From assembly GCA_022566355.1 (NCBI GenBank), contig JADFJB010000058.1, forward strand, positions 1 to 27,075: a DNA stretch of 27,075 nt. Direction: 5' to 3'. How positions within the stretch are numbered: the stretch's first letter is position 1; each line of letters starts with the position of its first letter. The position numbers and the translations under genes are program-made. A model generated the notes under the pieces. That model was not told the origin of the DNA, ran no database searches, and saw only the letters and a program-made list of their open reading frames with translations. The DNA is from a candidate division KSB1 bacterium (GTDB lineage Bacteria > Zhuqueibacterota > JdFR-76 > DREG01). Below, one piece after another: positions 15,095 to 26,181 of the stretch.

Positions 15095-16273
15095 ATGCAT
15101 AGAGTCGTCGCGTTAATATTGGCGGGCGGACGGGTAGACGAGCTTCATCCCTTTACCAAGTATCGCCCCAAATCAGCCGTTCCGTTTGGCGGGGTATATC
15201 GCATCATTGATTTTTCTCTTAGTAATCTCATGCATTCCAGGGTTTCGGTCGTCGGTTTGTTATCACAATACCGCTCATCGCCGCTGATCAACCATATCCT
15301 GGACGGCAGCTCCTGGGATTTGTCGGGCAAAAAAAGATCCTTAACTCTATTACCGCCATTTCTTGGTGAAAAAGAAAATGATTGGTATGATGGCACAGTA
15401 GACGCCGTGAACCAAAACCTTAATTTTATTCAGATGGCTGATCCTGAGATGGTGCTGATTTTATCCGGGGATCATATTTACAAAATGAATTACCAGGATA
15501 TTATTGATTATCATGTCAAAAAGAATGCGGATTTAACCATCGGGTTTATTCGCAATGAACCCAGTCAGTCTTATCGTTTTGGTGTTGCAGATATCGATAA
15601 TGAAGATGGCATTACTGGCGGCAAAGTACTGGAATATTATGAAAAGCCCGCAGAAAAGTCTTTTAATTGGGCTTCCATGACGGTTTTCGTTTTTAACACA
15701 AAATTTCTTTACAAATGCCTGGAAGAGTTTATCCCGGTTGATCGATCTCCCGAAACAATAGAATTTGGCCGGAATATTATCCCAAAACTTGTGAACAATC
15801 CCGGTAGATCTGATAAAATATATGGCTACAAATTTAAAGGCTATTGGGCGTATACACGTACACTTTCGGAATATTGGCACTCGAATATGGATGTTTTGTA
15901 TAACCGCTTCATCGACCTCGAGTTCTGGCAAGTGCGCACAAATTTAAAACACCGCGGAATTGATAGCCGGGTACCCGCAATTTTTAAACAAGGTTCAGGA
16001 GTAAAAAACAGTTTGGTTTGTAAAGGATGTATCATTCATGGAAAGGTTGAGAATAGTATTCTTTCACCTGGAGTGGTTGTGGGTAAAGGCTCTGAAATTT
16101 ACAACTCAATTATCATGTTCGACAGTAAGATTGGCGATAATGTATTTTTAAACAACTCGATTATCGATGTAGATGTAACGATTTCATCAGGATTGGAATT
16201 TGGCAACCAATCGAACCTGGAAGCAAATCCGAAAGAATTAAAGGCCATATCAGAAGGTGAGAAAAGGGATTGA
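15095..16273 (+). CDS. ADP-glucose pyrophosphorylase homologue lacking catalytic residues (GlgD-like)
   Basis: A 392-aa protein with the nucleotidyltransferase domain (1-~270) and the left-handed beta-helix C-terminal domain (IIHGKVENSILSPGVVVGKGSEIYNSII) of GlgC proteins. Key residues differ from active GlgC. The phosphate-loop Arg of GxGxRL is E16 (GGRVDEL), the Asp of KMDY is N132, and the metal-binding Asp of YWRDVGT is Y253 (GYWAYTRT). K26 and the GDH motif (D126) are kept. This pattern matches non-catalytic regulatory subunits such as Firmicute GlgD. It lies nine bases upstream of an intact glgC, so the two probably form a heteromeric enzyme for ADP-glucose synthesis in glycogen formation. 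No strong ribosome binding site precedes the ATG. Confidence 0.88.
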   Translation: MHRVVALILAGGRVDELHPFTKYRPKSAVPFGGVYRIIDFSLSNLMHSRVSVVGLLSQYRSSPLINHILDGSSWDLSGKKRSLTLLPPFLGEKENDWYDGTVDAVNQNLNFIQMADPEMVLILSGDHIYKMNYQDIIDYHVKKNADLTIGFIRNEPSQSYRFGVADIDNEDGITGGKVLEYYEKPAEKSFNWASMTVFVFNTKFLYKCLEEFIPVDRSPETIEFGRNIIPKLVNNPGRSDKIYGYKFKGYWAYTRTLSEYWHSNMDVLYNRFIDLEFWQVRTNLKHRGIDSRVPAIFKQGSGVKNSLVCKGCIIHGKVENSILSPGVVVGKGSEIYNSIIMFDSKIGDNVFLNNSIIDVDVTISSGLEFGNQSNLEANPKELKAISEGEKRD

Positions 16274-16282
16274 ACCCATAGA

Positions 16283-17515
16283 ATGAGTCAAACATTAGCA
16301 ATGATCCTGGCGGGAGGGGTCGGTAAGCGATTGAGTATATTATCCAAACTGCGGGCCAAGCCGGCTGTGCCGTTTGGCGGAATTTACCGGATTATCGATT
16401 TTACACTCAGTAATGTCATGAATTCAGGTGTTAATGACGTGGCCGTTCTACCTCAATATCGCCCCCTTTCTTTGGTTGAACATATTGGTATCGGTGTTCC
16501 CTGGGATTTTAACGGAAGAACACGGAGCATCAGCATTTTATCGCCCAGCACCGGCAAAAAGGATTCGGACTGGTACCGCGGTACGGCGGACGCTTTACGG
16601 CAAAATTTAGATCATATTCAACATTTCGGATCAAAATATGTCCTGTTGCTTTCCGGCGATCATATTTACAAAATGGATTATGGCGAGATCATAAATTATC
16701 ATAAAGATAAGGACGCAGATGTGACGGTTGCCATGATCGATGTACCATTGGGTGAAGCACATCAGTATGGTATCGGAACCCTGGATTCGAATGGAAAGAT
16801 CGATCAGTGGTTTGAAAAACCGAAAGATCCCCCGGGTAATTTGGCTTCTATGGGCGTTTATGTTTTTTCGACAAATTTTTTAATTGAACAGTTACAAAAG
16901 CTTTCCGGCGATGATTTTGGCCATGATTTGATCCCGGTCTTCGTGGAAAGATACAACGCTTTTGGCTTCGTATTTAAGGGGTATTGGCGCGATGTGGGAA
17001 CCGTAAAAGCCTATTGGGAAACCAATATGGATATTCTACATGATAGCTCCGGGTTGAATTTGAAAGAATGGGACGTCGCAACGAACTTTGACGAAGAGGG
17101 ACGGGTTGGGGATCGTCCGCCGGCTTTTATTTCCTCAGTGGCTGAAATCAGCAATTCGATGCTTGCCCAGGGTTGTAAAATTATGGGTACGGTTGAAAAT
17201 TCAATTATATCCCCCGGGGTCTTTGTCGGTGCAGACACAGTGATTCGTAATTCCATTATTTTACATGATACTCACATTAAGAATGGTTCACAATTAGATT
17301 ATTGTATCATTGATAAAGATGTAGAAATTGGCAATAGCTGTATTCTTGGGGATATAGCTGCAAACCCGGATAACCTCTGCTTAATTGGAAAACATTCCTT
17401 CATTCCGGATAATGTAAAGATTGGAAAATTCTGTAAAGTTTACCCGCGCACCGATCTCAGCAAACAAGCCACACTTGAGTACAAAGAATACCAGGAAATT
17501 GGAACTCCAATCTAG
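16283..17515 (+). CDS. glgC: Glucose-1-phosphate adenylyltransferase (ADP-glucose pyrophosphorylase)
   Basis: A 410-aa enzyme making ADP-glucose from glucose-1-phosphate and ATP, the committed step of bacterial glycogen synthesis. All main catalytic elements are present: GGVGKRL with R16, RAKPAVPFGG with K26, GDHIYKMDY with D126 and D132, WFEKP (substrate-binding Glu/Lys), and GYWRDVGT with D237. The C-terminal beta-helix shows hexapeptide-like repeats (GTVENSIISPGVFVGADTVIRNSII). It follows the GlgD-like gene by nine bases, so an operon is clear. No glgA or glgB gene is in the window. The allosteric effector cannot be inferred. Confidence 0.95.
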   Translation: MSQTLAMILAGGVGKRLSILSKLRAKPAVPFGGIYRIIDFTLSNVMNSGVNDVAVLPQYRPLSLVEHIGIGVPWDFNGRTRSISILSPSTGKKDSDWYRGTADALRQNLDHIQHFGSKYVLLLSGDHIYKMDYGEIINYHKDKDADVTVAMIDVPLGEAHQYGIGTLDSNGKIDQWFEKPKDPPGNLASMGVYVFSTNFLIEQLQKLSGDDFGHDLIPVFVERYNAFGFVFKGYWRDVGTVKAYWETNMDILHDSSGLNLKEWDVATNFDEEGRVGDRPPAFISSVAEISNSMLAQGCKIMGTVENSIISPGVFVGADTVIRNSIILHDTHIKNGSQLDYCIIDKDVEIGNSCILGDIAANPDNLCLIGKHSFIPDNVKIGKFCKVYPRTDLSKQATLEYKEYQEIGTPI

Positions 17516-17896: not shown

Positions 17897-19966
17897 ATGA
17901 AATTTCGAAGCTTTATCGCAGTTCTGGCAATTGTGCTATTCATTCTTCCCATTTCCCTGTGGTCACAGGAAGACATGAAATTTAAATTTATTCCTGATTC
18001 TTTAACACTCAACGTTGGTGATACAACAGAAGTAGAGATAACATTAGTTAACGAACAAGGCGAAGTTCAGGAAATTCCATTTCTGGTTTTTTCCCGGGGT
18101 CGAAGATCCGTTCAGGTTACACCCAGAAGCAGTGATGAAAGCGGTCGACTTACTGCGAAAGTGATTGCACATAAACCCGGCAGCTTTGCCCTAGTTGCAA
18201 GAACTGTTGCTCCCCGAGACGAACGAGTTCAGGGCCGTATGAATATTGAAATACCCTACCCTCCTCTTGAAAAGATCACATTTGTTAATCCAAGAACGAA
18301 ATTATATGCCAACACTACTGTCGCCTATAAGACTAAAGTTTTTGATGAAGCAAAACTCGAGCGTGAAAAAGTTGACGTTACCATAACCAGCAGTAATCCG
18401 GAAGTCGCTTCGTTCGATGGATTTTTGAACCTGACAGCCCATAAGAAAGGCAAAGTTTCATTAATTGCTAAAATTGAAAATATTGAAGAAAAATTGAATA
18501 TTCAGGTTATTCCGAATCCAGTGACCCACCTGGAATTGAAAAGTGATAAAAATGAAGCGCGAACAGGTGACGTCTTTCACTTTGAAGCCATCGCTTCAGA
18601 TAAAAACGGCAACACCGTCGAAGATGCCCCGGTGCATTATTCCGTGATTGCTAAACCACTGGATAATCTTGCACCTGCAGCCACGGGCCAGGTTGCACAA
18701 GATGGCCGTTTTGTGGCAGAAACGCCCGGGTTGTATACGATCCTAGCTAAATCCGGCAACCATGTCAGCCAATTAACTGTCAGCATTTCTCCACGTAATA
18801 TAAAACAAAAAATAGAAGTAGTAGGACACGGCCCTGTGACTGAGGTTTTTACTTCTGACCTTTGGGTCTGGGAAGGAGTTGACGGAAAAGACTATGCCGT
18901 GACCGGTACCTGGGGATCCAATGGTGAAGCCTATTTTTGGGATGTGACCGATCCATCTAATATGACGATTATAGACACAATTACCGTAGATGCCCGAACC
19001 GTTAACGACGTGAAAGTTTCGGAAGATGGCAGGATTTGTGTAATCAGCCGGGAAGGTGCATCTGACCGCAAAAATGGATTGGTTATTCTTGATGTTTCCA
19101 ATCCTCATGATGTTAAAATTCTTTCAGAATATAGTGATGAATTAACCGGCGGCGTCCATAATATTTTCGTCTACAAAGAACATATATATGCAGTCAATAA
19201 CGGACGCAGGTACGATGTAATCAGCATCAAAGATCCTAAGAATCCTCGACGCGTGAGTCGTTTTGAGTTAAACACACCTGGGCACTCCATTCATGATGTC
19301 TGGATCGAAGATGGTATCGCCTATTCATCAAACTGGGGGGATGGTTTGCAATTGGTAGACGTTGGCAGCGGAACCGGCGGCACATTCCAAAAATATGTCG
19401 AGACCCCAATGCCTGAGATTAAGAGCCCATTTTATGCAGGTGGTTCCCCGGAAAATCCGGTTCAATTTGCCAGCTATGCCTATCCCTCTGGTCGGAATCA
19501 TGCAGCTTTTCCATTTCATAGCAAATCTACCAATAAATTCTATGTTCTGGCGGGAGACGAATCGTTCCCTTATGGATTAAACATCAGGCAAAAGAAGCCG
19601 ACAAAAGCAGCCGGGTGGATCCACTTTGTAGATTTTACTGATCCAGGCAACCCGGATGAAGTTGCCCGCTATGAGGTACCTGAAGCTGGTTCACATAACT
19701 TATGGATCGAAGACGATATCCTTTATGCCGCTTTCTACAACGGTGGTTTACGGGTTGTGGATATTTCCGGTGAATTGATGGGTGACCTTTATCGCCAGGG
19801 CCGGGAAATAGCCTGGTATCTGCCCATGCATTCAGAAGGATTGATTCCAAACGCACCTATGGTTTGGGGTCCTCAACCTTATAAAGGAAATATCTTCTTT
19901 TCTGATTTGCACAGCGGTTTGTGGTGTGTCCGCCTGGTTCCAAGAAGTAATAGTGGAACTAACTGA
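17897..19966 (+). CDS. Secreted Ig-like/LVIVD beta-propeller protein, paralogue 1
   Basis: A 689-aa exported protein. Residues 1-23 are a signal peptide (basic start, hydrophobic core, cleavage near LWSQ). About 30-300 holds three Ig-like (Big_2-type) units, e.g. PDSLTLNVGDTTEVEITL, SSNPEVASFDGFLNLTAHKKG and GRFVAETPGLYTILAKSG. About 305-685 is a beta-propeller of LVIVD type, with repeats such as LVILDVSNPHDVKIL, GLQLVDVG and LRVVDISG. Histidines recur at the start of successive blades: H421, H466, H535 and H600. There is no C-terminal sorting domain and no lipobox, so it is periplasmic or released. GGAGG lies five bases before the ATG. It is closest to paralogue 3. Function is unknown. Confidence 0.9.
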   Translation: MKFRSFIAVLAIVLFILPISLWSQEDMKFKFIPDSLTLNVGDTTEVEITLVNEQGEVQEIPFLVFSRGRRSVQVTPRSSDESGRLTAKVIAHKPGSFALVARTVAPRDERVQGRMNIEIPYPPLEKITFVNPRTKLYANTTVAYKTKVFDEAKLEREKVDVTITSSNPEVASFDGFLNLTAHKKGKVSLIAKIENIEEKLNIQVIPNPVTHLELKSDKNEARTGDVFHFEAIASDKNGNTVEDAPVHYSVIAKPLDNLAPAATGQVAQDGRFVAETPGLYTILAKSGNHVSQLTVSISPRNIKQKIEVVGHGPVTEVFTSDLWVWEGVDGKDYAVTGTWGSNGEAYFWDVTDPSNMTIIDTITVDARTVNDVKVSEDGRICVISREGASDRKNGLVILDVSNPHDVKILSEYSDELTGGVHNIFVYKEHIYAVNNGRRYDVISIKDPKNPRRVSRFELNTPGHSIHDVWIEDGIAYSSNWGDGLQLVDVGSGTGGTFQKYVETPMPEIKSPFYAGGSPENPVQFASYAYPSGRNHAAFPFHSKSTNKFYVLAGDESFPYGLNIRQKKPTKAAGWIHFVDFTDPGNPDEVARYEVPEAGSHNLWIEDDILYAAFYNGGLRVVDISGELMGDLYRQGREIAWYLPMHSEGLIPNAPMVWGPQPYKGNIFFSDLHSGLWCVRLVPRSNSGTN

Positions 19967-20178
19967 TACCAATTAGGCATGCAATTTTTTAATATTTTAG
20001 CAATGGCATTAATATAAATTTTTGAATTAAGAGTCTGGAAGCCTTTGAAAAATAATAATAAACTGTCATTTCTAATCAACGTTCTTGGGAAAAGTGAAGT
20101 GAAATATTCAGGACGAATCGAAATGACAAGGCAGTAACTGTACTGCAAAGTCTATAAACTTAAAAAACGGAGGAAGCT

Positions 20179-22308
20179 ATGGATTGTGCCAGAAAAAGAT
20201 TGGTATCTTACTGCACAGTTGGCATCACATTCTTATTATTGGTCTCATCCTCATGGGCGCAAGATCCGCAAGAAGCCGACAGTACATTTCATTTTAAATT
20301 TAGCCCGGATTCATTATTTCTCAACGTCGGTGATGAAGTAGATGTGACAATCCAATATCTGGATGATGAAAATAATGTTCAGCCTATGTCTTTTTTCCTT
20401 TATTCCCGAGGTTCGGATAGGCAAGCCAGAAGAGCTTTAAAGATTACCCCGCGAAGAAGTGATCCGACCGGTAGTGTTACGGCTAAAGTAAAAGCTTATT
20501 TGCCCGGTTCCTTTACTTTAACGGCCAGAACAGTTGCACCCAGAGATGAAAGAATGCAAGCTGGCATTCCAGTGACAGTTGCGTTTCCACCGCTTGATAG
20601 AATTACCTTTATCAATCCGCAAGAGAAACTTTACACCGGCACAACTTTTGCTTACCGTACAAAAGTATTTGATACCGCCAACCTGGAACGCAAGGAGGTG
20701 GACGTTCAATTAACCAGCTCTAAGCCTGAAATTGCATCACTTGATCCCTTTGGAAATCTCACAGCCCATAAATCCGGAACTGTTTCTTTGATTGCCAAAT
20801 GTGAAGGTTTGGAGTCCAGGTTAGACATTCAGGTAAAATCCGACCCGGTAAAAAGCCTTGAGTTAAGCAGTGATTTGTTGGAAGCCCGAACCGGCGATGT
20901 CATCCACTTTAAAGCTGTAGCTAAAAATAAACGTGGAGAAACAGTTACAGACGCCCTGATACATTATGCCTTTGTTGCCAAACCTATGGATAACCTGGCT
21001 CCAGCAGCTTCAGGCCAGATAGAAGACGATGGCCGTTTCGTGGCGGAAACACCGGGATTGTATACAATTATGGCAAATTCCGGTTCTCATATGCAAAAGA
21101 CTACCGTCCGCATCGTTCCACGAAATGTCAGGCAAAAGATTGAAATTGTTGGTCATGGGGCGGTATTAAAGGTTAGAACATCTGACTTATGGGTTTGGGA
21201 AGGAGTTGACGGACGTGATTATGCAATTACCGGCACCTGGAATGCGAATGGCGAAGCCTATTTCTGGGATGTGACCGATCCCTCGAAAATGACCATTATA
21301 GACACGATAACTGTGGATGCCCGCACCGTAAATGATGTGAAAGTATCCGAAGATGGCCGAATTGCCGTGATCAGCCGGGAAGGGGCATCCAACCGGCGCA
21401 ATGGCATTGTGATCCTTGATATCTCAAATCCATATGATGTAAAAATTCTGTCGACCTACGATGATGAACTCACCGGTGGTGTTCACAATTTATTTATCTA
21501 TGCGAATCATGTGTACGCTGTCAATAATGGTCGTCGTTATGATATAATAAATATTGAGGACCCAACGAACCCACACAGAGTTGGACGCTTTGAACTGGAT
21601 ACACCCGGACACAGCGTACACGATGTCTGGATCCAGGATGGAATCGCTTATTCATCCAACTGGCAAGATGGACTACAACTAGTAGACATCGGTACTGCTG
21701 CCACTGGCGGGCCGTTTAAAAAGTACGAAGAAGTCCCGATGCCGGAGTTAAATAGCCCATTTTTTGCAAACGGCTCCCCTTCAAATCCGGTGCAATTTGC
21801 CAACTATGAATACCCGAGTGGTTGGAATCATGCGGCATTCCCCTTTTATAGTAAGTCAACAAATAAATTTTACGTGCTCGCCGGTGATGAAGCCAGACCC
21901 AGCGAGAACATTTATGCTAAAGGTTTGCGTGACCGAATTCCAGGAACCATGACTGGTTGGATCCATTTTGTTGATTTTACCGATCCTAAAAATTCACATG
22001 AAGCCGCCAGGTACCAGGTCCCAAATGGCGGCTCTCACAATTATTGGGTAGAAGATGATATTTTATATGCGGCATTCTACCAGGGTGGGTTCCGGGTTGT
22101 AGATTTATCCGGTGAGTTAATGGGGGATCTGTATCGACAAGGACGAGAAATTGCATCGTTTTTACCAACACATGCTGATGGATTTATTCCAAATGCACCC
22201 ATGGTTTGGGGGCCACAGCCACACAAAGGAACTATTTTTTTAGCTGATATGAATAGTGGTCTATGGGCCGTACGTCTTATTCCAAATAATGAAGGAGGAA
22301 CTAATTAA
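20179..22308 (+). CDS. Secreted Ig-like/LVIVD beta-propeller protein, paralogue 2
   Basis: A 709-aa paralogue with the same architecture: signal peptide (cleavage near SSWAQ), three Ig-like units, and a propeller starting near residue 325. It is the most divergent of the three: FFANGSPSNP, GSHNYWVEDD and ASFLPTHADGF replace the forms shared by paralogues 1 and 3, and it carries a longer loop after LAGDEA (ARPSENIYAKGLRDRIPG). The blade histidines are kept (H436, H481, H551, H620). CGGAGG precedes the ATG. Its TAA shares one base with the ATG of the downstream lipoprotein, so these two genes are translationally coupled and their products may act together. The 212 bases upstream contain no other gene. 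Confidence 0.9.
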   Translation: MDCARKRLVSYCTVGITFLLLVSSSWAQDPQEADSTFHFKFSPDSLFLNVGDEVDVTIQYLDDENNVQPMSFFLYSRGSDRQARRALKITPRRSDPTGSVTAKVKAYLPGSFTLTARTVAPRDERMQAGIPVTVAFPPLDRITFINPQEKLYTGTTFAYRTKVFDTANLERKEVDVQLTSSKPEIASLDPFGNLTAHKSGTVSLIAKCEGLESRLDIQVKSDPVKSLELSSDLLEARTGDVIHFKAVAKNKRGETVTDALIHYAFVAKPMDNLAPAASGQIEDDGRFVAETPGLYTIMANSGSHMQKTTVRIVPRNVRQKIEIVGHGAVLKVRTSDLWVWEGVDGRDYAITGTWNANGEAYFWDVTDPSKMTIIDTITVDARTVNDVKVSEDGRIAVISREGASNRRNGIVILDISNPYDVKILSTYDDELTGGVHNLFIYANHVYAVNNGRRYDIINIEDPTNPHRVGRFELDTPGHSVHDVWIQDGIAYSSNWQDGLQLVDIGTAATGGPFKKYEEVPMPELNSPFFANGSPSNPVQFANYEYPSGWNHAAFPFYSKSTNKFYVLAGDEARPSENIYAKGLRDRIPGTMTGWIHFVDFTDPKNSHEAARYQVPNGGSHNYWVEDDILYAAFYQGGFRVVDLSGELMGDLYRQGREIASFLPTHADGFIPNAPMVWGPQPHKGTIFLADMNSGLWAVRLIPNNEGGTN

Positions 22309-23450
22309 TGTTTCGAAGAATTTTTTTGATCGTTTTTTGCCTGGTTATTTTAGGGAGTTTAATATCATGTGCCTCTTCCTCTGTGTCGATCGTACCCGAA
22401 TCATCAATTGTATATTATGTTTATGTAACTGCTGAATCCGAAGACGAAGTTTCTTTGATCAGTTTTGATGGAAAAACAACTACAGTTGTAAAAAACATTC
22501 CGGTTGGTGTTTGGCCAGTGGAGATCGAAGGTCCACACGGTATTACCGTTAGTCCGGATGGAAAGTATTGGTATCTTTCCATGGCCCATGGTTTTCCCTA
22601 CGGACATGTTTATAAATTCGCCACGGGTACTGATGAAATGCTTGGCCGGGTTGAATTGGACTTGTTCCCTGCAACTATGCAGATCTCACCGGCAACCGGC
22701 TTACTATATGTTGTAAATTTTAATCTTCATGGCGACCATGTTCCCAGCTCGGTATCCATCGTCGATCCGGAAACTCTCGAAGAAATCGACCGGGTAACGA
22801 CCGGTGTAATGCCCCATGGTTCACGAATTTCACCGGATGGATTGTATCATTATTCAGTTGCAATGATGGACGACAAACTCTTCGAAATCGATGTGGTATC
22901 CTTCGAAATCAGTCGAACCCTCAACCTGAACAAAGACGGAATGGGAGAGATGCAATCGCATGCCGGAATGCAGCACGATATGAAATCAGGAATTAAACAC
23001 AAACCGATATCCAAACCGACCTGGGTTTATCCTCATCCCAGCAAACCATTTGTTTACGTTGCCAACAATGGCTCGGCGGAAATCGCAGAAGTGGATTTAA
23101 ACGAATGGAAAGTAACCCGCCGATTTCAAACCGATAAAGGACCCTACAACCTGGAAGTAACCCAGGATGGCAAATTACTTGTGGTCAGCTACAAATCTGT
23201 TGGCGCAACTGGAATTTGGGATTTGGAAAGCGGCAAAGAGTTGGCCAAGCTTCCAAACAGCCGCAAGGTTACCCATGGGGTTACAATTTCCCCGGATAGC
23301 CGTTATGCGTTTGTGTCTGCTGAAGGGATAGGCGCCGAAGCCGGTGTTGTCGATATCTTTGATTTAAAAACACTAAAGCATGTTGGCACGGCAGAAATTG
23401 GCAAGCAAGCGGGTGGTATCATCTTTTGGAAAATGGAATCATCTGAATAA
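22308..23450 (+). CDS. YVTN-type beta-propeller lipoprotein with Met/His-rich loop
   Basis: A 380-aa protein. The signal peptide ends in a lipobox, LISC, with C21 the expected lipidated residue, so it is membrane-anchored in the envelope. The rest is a YVTN/YncE-like beta-propeller with repeats such as GITVSPDGKYWYLS, SRISPDGLYHYSV, PSKPFVYVANNG and GVTISPDSRYAFVSAEG. His-Gly turns recur before the blades: H77, H94, H141, H170 and H323. An inserted loop at about 212-231 is rich in Met and His (GMGEMQSHAGMQHDM, then KHK), resembling copper-binding segments; metal binding is inference. GGAGG within the end of the upstream gene serves as the ribosome binding site; the ATG overlaps the stop of paralogue 2. 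Confidence 0.9.
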   Translation: MFRRIFLIVFCLVILGSLISCASSSVSIVPESSIVYYVYVTAESEDEVSLISFDGKTTTVVKNIPVGVWPVEIEGPHGITVSPDGKYWYLSMAHGFPYGHVYKFATGTDEMLGRVELDLFPATMQISPATGLLYVVNFNLHGDHVPSSVSIVDPETLEEIDRVTTGVMPHGSRISPDGLYHYSVAMMDDKLFEIDVVSFEISRTLNLNKDGMGEMQSHAGMQHDMKSGIKHKPISKPTWVYPHPSKPFVYVANNGSAEIAEVDLNEWKVTRRFQTDKGPYNLEVTQDGKLLVVSYKSVGATGIWDLESGKELAKLPNSRKVTHGVTISPDSRYAFVSAEGIGAEAGVVDIFDLKTLKHVGTAEIGKQAGGIIFWKMESSE

Positions 23451-23553
23451 TTTTTGCTGCTAAAAGTTTAATAAATGAAAGGAGTTACTGATAGTTACTT
23501 CTTTTGATAAATCATACAGATACTGGATACTGGTTTCTTGATGCTATAGCATA

Positions 23554-23622
23554 TGTCACTCCTTCGGAGTGTTACATTCTCTTGTTGCGTTTGGCTATAA
23601 ACATTTCATCCTTACAGGATTT
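23554..23622. repeat. Direct repeat with CTCC..GGAG palindrome, copy A
   Basis: This copy starts with the palindrome CACTCCTTCGGAGTG and runs through GTTACATTCTCTTGTTG to CGTTTGGCTATAAACATTTC and ATCCTTACAGGATT. It matches 23837-23906 closely apart from a few substitutions and one indel. The final ATCC..GGAT is a second short palindrome. It resembles dispersed repeats found in metagenomic FCB genomes. Confidence 0.85.
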
Positions 23623-23773
23623 TCCCCACGAAACTGAAAAAAAGGGTTTACATGCGGAGAATACAAATATTAATCCGAAATGTTTAAGGGTTCTATATGA
23701 TTGGAATCATAAAACATACGGTTCTCTTCAACTCCTATGAGTGCAATGTTTATAGAATGGGAGCTAAATAATA

Positions 23774-23800
23774 ATACAAAACTCCGTAGGAGTTGTATAT
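23774..23800. repeat. Palindrome AACTCCGTAGGAGTT
   Basis: A near-perfect palindrome flanked by ATACAA on the left and GTATAT on the right, so the stem can extend. The arms match, in inverted orientation, the CTCCTACGGAGTT at the start of repeat copy B about 50 bases further on. Confidence 0.7.
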
Positions 23801-23836
23801 AGTTTCTGGTATGAAGATTCTAAAATGGCAAACACT

Positions 23837-23906
23837 TGTCGCTCCTACGGAGTTTTACATTCTCTGGTTGACGTTTGGCTATAAACATTTCATCCTTACA
23901 GGATTC
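23837..23906. repeat. Direct repeat with CTCC..GGAG palindrome, copy B
   Basis: The second copy of the 23554-23622 element, in the same orientation, 283 bases apart. Its leading palindrome is CTCCTACGGAG instead of CTCCTTCGGAG. The block GACGTTTGGCTATAAACATT and the following CATCCTTACAGGATT are essentially identical to copy A. Confidence 0.85.
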
Positions 23907-24099
23907 TACATAAGTTTAGTTCAGATTATGATAATAAATGTTTGAAAGACACAAATAATTGGAAAACATTTCAACACTATCTCGACTTATTCGGGATTCC
24001 ACTTAGGCGTGTCACATTCCTTCAAAAACTCATTTCGAAGGCGTTCAACATAGTAGTCATTTTGAAAAAATTCTATGAACAACCATCCCGGAGGCTTAA

Positions 24100-26181
24100 A
24101 TGAAAAGGTCAATTCCATCCATTATTATCGTTTGCTTCGCAATTTCAATCCTATTTTCACAAACACTATTTGCCCAGGAAGCAGAAGAATCTGATTCGTT
24201 ATTCTTTAAATTCGATCAAGACTCACTTCAGCTTGATATTGGCGACACGGTACGATTAAAGATTGATTTGATTAATGAAGCCGGGGAATTACAAACCAAC
24301 CCATTTTTTGTGTTTTCCAGGGGAAAAAATGCACGAAGATCGGTAACCGTAACCCCACGCAGAAGTGATTCCACCGGAACACTTATAGCAAATATTATCG
24401 CTCATAAACCTGGCTTTTTTCGGATTGCGGCTAGATCGATTAGTCCGGGCAATAGAGTCAGGTCAGAAATTCCGGTTAAAGTAAACTTCCCACCGCTTGC
24501 AAAAGTTGAATTTCAGAATCCAAAAGAAAAGATTTATGCAAGAACCACAACCTCCTTTAAAACCAAAGTCATCGATGCGGCAGGTTTTGATAGGAAGAAT
24601 GTTCAGGTTAGTTTAACCAGTAGTCATCCGAAAATAGCTTCATTGGATGGTTATGGAAATTTAACGGCTCACAAATCCGGAAAGATAACATTGACGGCTC
24701 AGACCGGCAATATTGTAGAATCATTAGAAATACAAATTGTCAAAAATCCGGTTACAAGAGTGGAGCTGAATTCGGATATGGAAGAAGGCCGCACCGGGGA
24801 CGTATTTCATTTCAGCGCGATGGCTTTTGATAAAAAAGGAAAAGACGTTTCCGATGCGCCGATCCGATATTATGTCAACGCAAATCCGGAGGACAATCTG
24901 GGTCCCTCTGCAACCGGACAAATCGAACAGGATGGCCGCTTCGTAGCAGAAACACCTGGATTGTATACCATCGCCGCCCAGTCCGGACCCTTTATCGATC
25001 AACTCACGGTTCGCATCACCAAAAGGAATGTTCGGAAGAAATTGGAATTGGTGGGTCATGGTGCGGTGGAGGATGTTTATACCTCTGATTTATGGGTTTG
25101 GGAGGGAGTTGACGGCAGGGATTACGCAATTACCGGTACCTGGGGCGCTAACGGTGAAGCCTATTTCTGGGATGTTACCGATCCTGCGAATATGACGATT
25201 ATCGATACCATTACTGTGGATGCTCGTACCGTCAATGATGTAAAGGTTTCTGAAGACGGAAGAATTGCCGTGATCAGCCGTGAGGGCGCATCCAATCGCC
25301 GCAACGGTATCCTGATTCTGGATGTTACCAATCCTCACGATGTTAAAATTCTTTCCCGCTACGATGATGAACTGACCGGCGGCGTCCACAATGTGTTCAT
25401 CTATAAAGAACATGTTTATGCAGTCAATAATGGCCGCCGTTTCGATGTCATCAATATTGAAGACCCAACAAATCCTCATAGAGTTGGCCGTTTTGAGTTA
25501 AACACGCCGGGACATAGTATCCATGATGTCTGGATCGAAGACGGAATTGCCTATTCTTCAAACTGGGGGGATGGCATTCAGTTAATCGATGTGGGCAGTG
25601 GAACCGGCGGCCAATTCCAAAAGTACGTGGAAACCCCAATGCCTGAGGTCAAGAGTCCGTTTTATGCCGGCGGATCACCGCAAAATCCAAAGAATTTTGG
25701 CAGTTACGAAGATCCCAGCGGTCGGAACCATGCGGCATTTCCGTTCCATAGTAAATCCACCGGCAAGTTCTATGTCCTGGCCGGAGATGAAGCTTTTCCT
25801 TACGGCGACGGCGCCAGCCAGTTTAAACCCACAATCGCAGCAGGTTGGATCCATTTTATCGATTTTACCAATCCTGCCAGTCCCAAAGAAACAGCGCGCT
25901 ATGAAGTCCCCGAGGCCGGCTCCCATAACCTATGGGTCGAAGATGATATTTTATACGCAGCCTTCTATAATGGCGGTTTGCGGGTAGTGGATATTTCAGG
26001 AGAACTCATGGGTGACTTATACAAACAGGGCCGGGAGATTGCCTGGTATTTGCCATACCACCCCAAGGGTCTCATCCCCAACTCGCCCATGGTCTGGGGA
26101 CCACAGCCCTACAAAGGCCTGATTTACTTCTCCGATTTTGACAGCGGTTTGTGGGCAGTTAAGTTGGTGGATGAGGAGTAG
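24100..26181 (+). CDS. Secreted Ig-like/LVIVD beta-propeller protein, paralogue 3
   Basis: A 693-aa paralogue. The signal peptide ends near TLFAQ; Ig-like units follow (e.g. SSHPKIASLDGYGNLTAHKSG, GRFVAETPGLYTIAAQSG) and then the LVIVD propeller from about residue 315. It shares with paralogue 1 the forms YVETPMPEVKSPFYAGGSP and GSHNLWVEDDILYAAFYNGG. The blade histidines are H430, H475, H544 and H609. It ends within the last propeller strand (GLWAVKLVDEE), without a sorting tail. GGAGG precedes the ATG. It is separated from the lipoprotein gene by a repeat-bearing 649-base interval, so it is probably its own transcription unit. It is convergent with the ImmA-like pseudogene. Confidence 0.9.
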   Translation: MKRSIPSIIIVCFAISILFSQTLFAQEAEESDSLFFKFDQDSLQLDIGDTVRLKIDLINEAGELQTNPFFVFSRGKNARRSVTVTPRRSDSTGTLIANIIAHKPGFFRIAARSISPGNRVRSEIPVKVNFPPLAKVEFQNPKEKIYARTTTSFKTKVIDAAGFDRKNVQVSLTSSHPKIASLDGYGNLTAHKSGKITLTAQTGNIVESLEIQIVKNPVTRVELNSDMEEGRTGDVFHFSAMAFDKKGKDVSDAPIRYYVNANPEDNLGPSATGQIEQDGRFVAETPGLYTIAAQSGPFIDQLTVRITKRNVRKKLELVGHGAVEDVYTSDLWVWEGVDGRDYAITGTWGANGEAYFWDVTDPANMTIIDTITVDARTVNDVKVSEDGRIAVISREGASNRRNGILILDVTNPHDVKILSRYDDELTGGVHNVFIYKEHVYAVNNGRRFDVINIEDPTNPHRVGRFELNTPGHSIHDVWIEDGIAYSSNWGDGIQLIDVGSGTGGQFQKYVETPMPEVKSPFYAGGSPQNPKNFGSYEDPSGRNHAAFPFHSKSTGKFYVLAGDEAFPYGDGASQFKPTIAAGWIHFIDFTNPASPKETARYEVPEAGSHNLWVEDDILYAAFYNGGLRVVDISGELMGDLYKQGREIAWYLPYHPKGLIPNSPMVWGPQPYKGLIYFSDFDSGLWAVKLVDEE

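Follow-up and report, generated by a model that had tools for sequence, protein, structure and literature searches.

Three exported propeller proteins of a candidate division KSB1 bacterium share four histidines that resemble a binuclear metal site

Do histidines that return from blade to blade in a propeller protein mark a metal site? The question is raised by three paralogous genes in a 27,075-nucleotide stretch of DNA from a candidate division KSB1 bacterium (contig JADFJB010000058.1 of assembly GCA_022566355.1; the whole stretch is called the window below), each encoding an exported protein with immunoglobulin-like (Ig-like) units and a propeller that carries four such histidines. A first-pass annotation of the window had placed an active or metal site there. 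This proposal is well supported, because the histidines lie on inner strands in a structural model, are invariant among homologues, and align with four histidines of a binuclear-metal propeller enzyme, the phosphotriesterase (haloalkylphosphorus hydrolase) of Sphingobium sp. TCM1 (PDB 5hrm and 5ioj; Sb-PTE below). Judged by sequence and model, a metal or active site at these positions is likely and the three proteins are probably metal-dependent enzymes.

Recurring histidines and predicted fold

In paralogue 1 (P0001; 17897-19966, 689 residues, on the + strand like all paralogue and partner features given here) the four histidines are H421 (19157-19159), H466 (19292-19294), H535 (19499-19501) and H600 (19694-19696), on the inner strands of blades 3, 4, 5 and 6, respectively. 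Their equivalents are H436 (21484-21486), H481 (21619-21621), H551 (21829-21831) and H620 (22036-22038) in paralogue 2 (P0002; 20179-22308, 709 residues), and H430 (25387-25389), H475 (25522-25524), H544 (25729-25731) and H609 (25924-25926) in paralogue 3 (P0003; 24100-26181, 693 residues). All twelve positions had been given correctly, and their contexts are GGVHN, S(I/V)HDVW, (R/W)NHAAF and GSHNxW. The recurrence had been described as running blade by blade; it is present in blades 3 to 6, that is, in four of the seven blades and not in every one. With histidine at about 3% of propeller residues, we estimate a chance of about 3e-5 that four of the seven blades would have it at one common position, or about 1e-3 once the choice of that position is allowed for.

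A single scan across species genomes yielded 79 loci, and these, with two further loci from the same phylum, supplied 108 full homologues (111 sequences with the three window copies). H421, H466, H535 and H600 are invariant (100%) throughout this set. H576, which the first-pass annotation had left outside its set, is just as invariant, and H463 (95%) and H429 (94%) are nearly so; elsewhere in the protein histidines vary freely (H541 4%, H672 4%, H404 7%). An alignment of 106 sequences shows further invariant columns at D321, D371, K373, R385, E386, D554, E555, Y614, R619, R636 and E637, of which E555 (19559-19561 in paralogue 1) ends the second strand of blade 5.

The AlphaFold2 model built with the 106-sequence alignment (predicted local distance difference test, pLDDT, 90; predicted template modelling score, pTM, 0.83) is in line with the layout of paralogue 1 as a signal peptide, Ig-like units at about residues 28-300 and a seven-bladed propeller at about 302-685 (18800-19951, drawn from the model strands and from a VIA structural match to 5hrm over model residues 302-685). 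By strand count the propeller runs from about 305 to 681, its seven blades being closed by the strand 305-312. The inner strands of blades 3, 4, 5 and 6 are 420-426, 464-471, 534-542 and 599-605, and each of the four histidines is residue 2 or 3 of the innermost strand, at equivalent positions from blade to blade. At the equivalent positions of blades 1 and 2 stand S320 and N370, followed by the invariant D321 and D371.

Resemblance to the Sphingobium phosphotriesterase

The best VIA match of the paralogue model is 5hrm (Z 34.3, 331 aligned residues, 19% identity), ahead of a next row at Z 32.6 with 293 aligned residues and 10% identity. The title of the Sb-PTE structure paper, as it stands in a reference list (PMC11656708), names a binuclear metal centre and a seven-bladed propeller. 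The sequences compared were those of a nearly identical enzyme encoded on a Sphingobium plasmid and of a Novosphingobium homologue with 49% identity. Three MAFFT modes return the same pairs, H421-H258, H466-H317, H535-H389, H600-H475 and E555-E407, and agree also on D321-D130, R619-R498 and D622-D501. The metal ligands of Sb-PTE we take to be E201, H258, H389, E407 and H475; H421, H535, H600 and E555 match the positions of H258, H389, H475 and E407 in all three alignments.

The histidines might instead be structural, hydrogen-bonding within the blades like the repeated residues of WD40 proteins, and the protein a metal-free binding scaffold. Such a role would suit the Asp or Asn that follows the histidine in blades 3, 4 and 6, the Trp or Phe at the third position in all four, and the same repeat-like pattern in blades 1 and 2 with Ser and Asn replacing the histidine. 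That the pattern persists in these two blades while the histidine does not speaks against it, as does the alignment of all four histidines and E555 with His and Glu of a metalloenzyme, and the invariant charged residues R385, E386, E555 and R619 are better suited to an active site. We consider a purely structural role unlikely.

Several points weigh against a metal site of the Sb-PTE kind. We infer that the four side chains converge in the channel only because they occupy equivalent blade positions in the model. The Sb-PTE ligands are presumed ones that agree with the sequence in residue letters, and H317, the counterpart of H466, is not among them. The presumed ligand E201 lacks a clear partner in the paralogues: in the joint alignment it falls on D360, in a poorly aligned region, and D371 is an alternative. 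The direct sequence match of the paralogue profile to 5hrm is weak (E 0.21), searches of PDB sequences with the paralogue profiles returning Ig domains or weak matches only, and a direct hhalign of the paralogue profile (91%) slips by one blade in the first half. The last blade of Sb-PTE also has a histidine (MSHVRY), so that histidines would face histidines even in a register displaced by one blade. The direct alignment being weak and slipped, the blade register rests on the full-length structural match and on a bridge through the choice-of-anchor B family.

Choice-of-anchor B and LVIVD proteins

By hhalign, choice-of-anchor B domains match the paralogues at 99.9% (E 3e-31) and the phosphotriesterase pair at 97% (E 1.7e-11) in the same blade register, and their profile retrieves 5hrm by sequence (E 1.4e-6). 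The paralogues score 67.4, 60.8 and 69.8 bits against the family model (NCBIfam TIGR04312), below its curated cut-off of 100. Seven choice-of-anchor B domains were aligned, taken from the source genome, which encodes four more proteins of this family, and from its relatives; the three that were re-scanned all exceed the TIGR04312 cut-off. They carry invariant H, H, H, E and H in the same order as the paralogues, and all four histidines, D321, D371, K373, E555, Y614 and R619 are common to both groups. The ladder of histidines is therefore a family-wide feature. The suggestion of an undescribed metalloprotein set accordingly needs division: a metal site is likely from sequence and model, while the histidine set is not particular to the paralogues. 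Choice-of-anchor B and LVIVD proteins are widespread and, to our knowledge, have no assigned function; our literature search found no paper proposing a metal site for either.

Homology to the Sphingobium enzyme makes a binuclear, hydrolase-type site the single mechanism that we favour most, and we hold it with moderate confidence. Each exported paralogue would then consist of Ig-like units carrying a seven-bladed propeller metalloenzyme, in which H421, H466, H535, H600 and E555, perhaps aided by the invariant D371 and D321, would bind a metal centre at the mouth of the channel, probably binuclear as in Sb-PTE. By this homology a metal-activated water would most likely hydrolyse an ester-type bond (phosphoester, lactone or similar), and the protein may act jointly with a second propeller encoded beside it.

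Partner propeller and nitrous oxide reductase

This second propeller, P0004 (22308-23450, 380 residues), is an apparent lipoprotein (LISC lipobox) with a YncE-like seven-bladed fold. Its gene lies between paralogues 2 and 3, and its ATG begins at the last base of the paralogue 2 stop codon, a one-base overlap. The span had been read as three genes, and these three open reading frames are real; the fourth had been overlooked. P0004 passes the Pfam YNCE model (PF21783) with 37.4 bits (cut-off 27.1), and its structural model has a pLDDT of 91. Among 70 partner sequences four histidines are invariant, namely H77 (22536-22538, blade 2 inner strand), H94 (22587-22589, after the blade 2 second strand), H141 (22728-22730, after the blade 3 second strand) and H170 (22815-22817, blade 4 inner strand); H323 (23274-23276, blade 7 inner strand) is present in 69, with a gap in the other, and M168, M186 and M187 are 99% conserved. 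The strand topology of the model puts these five near-invariant histidines on the same face. H77, H170 and H323, though not H94 and H141, also occur in six related propellers of the same phylum; some of the phylum's YncE-like propellers that share these three channel histidines (L121-L127) have an N-terminal region containing CxxCH. Beyond the fold, hhalign finds no homology between partner and paralogues (5%).

The first-pass annotation had likened the histidine ring to nitrous oxide reductase. In that enzyme the CuZ site draws its histidines from blades II (which gives two), III, V, VI, VII and I (PMC11573801), and in the paralogues they lie on blades 3, 4, 5 and 6; since the ligand blades differ, the analogy is not supported. 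In the partner, inner-strand histidines are found on blades 2, 4 and 7 only, four CuZ blade positions lack one, and the CuZ set is thus incomplete. On the blade positions of the histidines we reject a copper site like that of nitrous oxide reductase for paralogues and partner alike. Against the clade III lactonase-type nitrous oxide reductase (NF052460) P0004 scores 60 bits, with a cut-off of 700. We reject its L-NosZ and hydrazine synthase matches as generic propeller similarity far below the cut-offs, the L-NosZ search also matching in seven control genomes. No NosZ exceeds its cut-off in the three genomes of the phylum that hold the pair of paralogue and partner.

More broadly, the metal in the channel might be a redox one (copper or iron), and the proteins oxidoreductases like nitrous oxide reductase, thiocyanate dehydrogenase, SELENBP1 or the four-His iron propellers. 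Several propellers with channel histidines are indeed copper enzymes (PMC11573801, PMC9456337, PMC10362175), and the partner model aligns over its whole length with nitrous oxide reductase (Z 35.6) and thiocyanate dehydrogenase (Z 34.8). Generic propellers, however, outrank both among the partner's structural matches, the CuZ blades are at odds with both proteins as described, and the fetched loci show no conserved cytochrome, cupredoxin or copper gene next to the pair. A carotenoid-oxygenase-like four-His iron propeller is absent among the VIA matches listed, which excludes nothing. All told, redox chemistry seems to us quite improbable here, and the hydrolase-type site remains our preferred reading.

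Distribution and gene neighbourhood

Homologues of the paralogues occur in Calditrichota, Fidelibacterota, Balneolota, Rhodothermota, Bacteroidota, Planctomycetota, Gemmatimonadota and Acidobacteriota; Gracilimonas and Algoriphagus are among the cultured bacteria that have the genes. In the tree the window copies group with a Calditrichota relative and two genomes of their own phylum, and tandem copies, one to four per locus, have arisen repeatedly. The copy at locus L014, on a contig labelled as a Pelagibacteraceae metagenome-assembled genome, falls within the Fidelibacterota clade, so this label is probably a binning error. Of the 79 loci, 67 have a partner homologue adjoining the paralogue gene or genes, as have both relatives from the phylum; it is mostly immediately downstream, and most loci lacking it are cut off by contig ends. 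It is apparently absent beside the gene or genes in a Fidelibacterota subgroup (L027, L038, L046, L057) and in L048 and L054, so that the linkage, though strong, is not absolute. A search of 59 genomes, nearly all from the phylum of the source bacterium, gave full paralogues in three only (G000, G033, G056), and the full partner in the same three.

No other neighbour is conserved across many phyla in the fetched loci, and most of the remaining genes that they share are restricted to particular lineages. In 21 loci, almost all from Balneolota (among L011-L074; e.g. L031:9768-10517), the pair is followed downstream by a gene for a ZIP-family transporter (Pfam Zip); though lineage-specific, it is suggestive of a metal. 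Proline racemase family genes adjoin the pair in one Planctomycetota and one Acidobacteriota locus (L071:1674-2711, - strand; L080:289-1338, + strand), and class-V aminotransferase family genes with a leader-like N-terminus stand beside the gene or genes in Fidelibacterota and Flammeovirgaceae (L027:87-1379, - strand; L077:13767-15026 and L079:13093-14352, + strand).

Within the window, the three paralogues are 68-70% identical overall and 75-82% in the propeller, so that the N-terminal Ig part varies more, as had been noted. Bacterial Ig models match all three below threshold, and the full-length paralogue profile matches Ig domains in PDB. P0001 to P0003 are the sole full copies in the source genome. 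A C-terminal fragment at the edge of another contig (C129:3-134, locus L145), identical to paralogue 3 at 41 of 42 positions, represents either one more copy or a variant due to assembly or strain. Directly upstream, at 15095-17515, lie two tandem sugar-nucleotide genes (glucose-1-phosphate adenylyltransferase-like, judged from sequence only). Rfam gave no matches, and promoter and terminator counts are close to chance level.

Significance and comparison with known systems

A propeller hydrolase with binuclear metal is already known; what is new is a branch that bears Ig units, its pairing with another His-rich propeller, and the extension of the proposed site to the choice-of-anchor B family. 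Alignment with a binuclear-metal enzyme of solved structure points to residues for mutation and to metal and hydrolase assays, and the close gene linkage supplies a candidate partner. We raise tentatively, as an idea with somewhat less than an even chance, that choice-of-anchor B proteins as a whole form a large, unrecognised family of exported propeller hydrolases with binuclear metal, and that the Ig-bearing branch forms with the YncE-like partner a two-propeller, two-metal-site enzyme system in eight phyla.

Among known systems, nitrous oxide reductase has in common with the paralogues a seven-bladed propeller with several hub histidines; it differs in its ligand blades, and the paralogues have neither a CuA domain nor a sequence match to it. 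YncE-like propellers (PF21783) share fold and Pfam score with the partner, which is set apart by its five near-invariant histidines. All three paralogues pass the gathering cut-off (20.2) of Pfam LVIVD (PF08309), with 26.6, 20.4 and 21.9 bits, but this is a repeat model without an attached function. Choice-of-anchor B proteins share the propeller, the four histidines and the Glu, Asp, Arg and Tyr; the paralogues differ in falling below that family's cut-off, in their N-terminal Ig units and linked partner gene, and in H576, H463 and H429, which are their own. Sb-PTE has no Ig domains, an extra histidine in its last blade, a presumed ligand (E201) without clear counterpart, and only about 19% identity, and the plasmid stretch examined shows no gene for a partner propeller. 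Yet it shares with the paralogues a seven-bladed propeller of LVIVD-like repeats and, in one-to-one alignment, four inner-strand histidines in blades 3 to 6 and the Glu that follows the second strand of blade 5.

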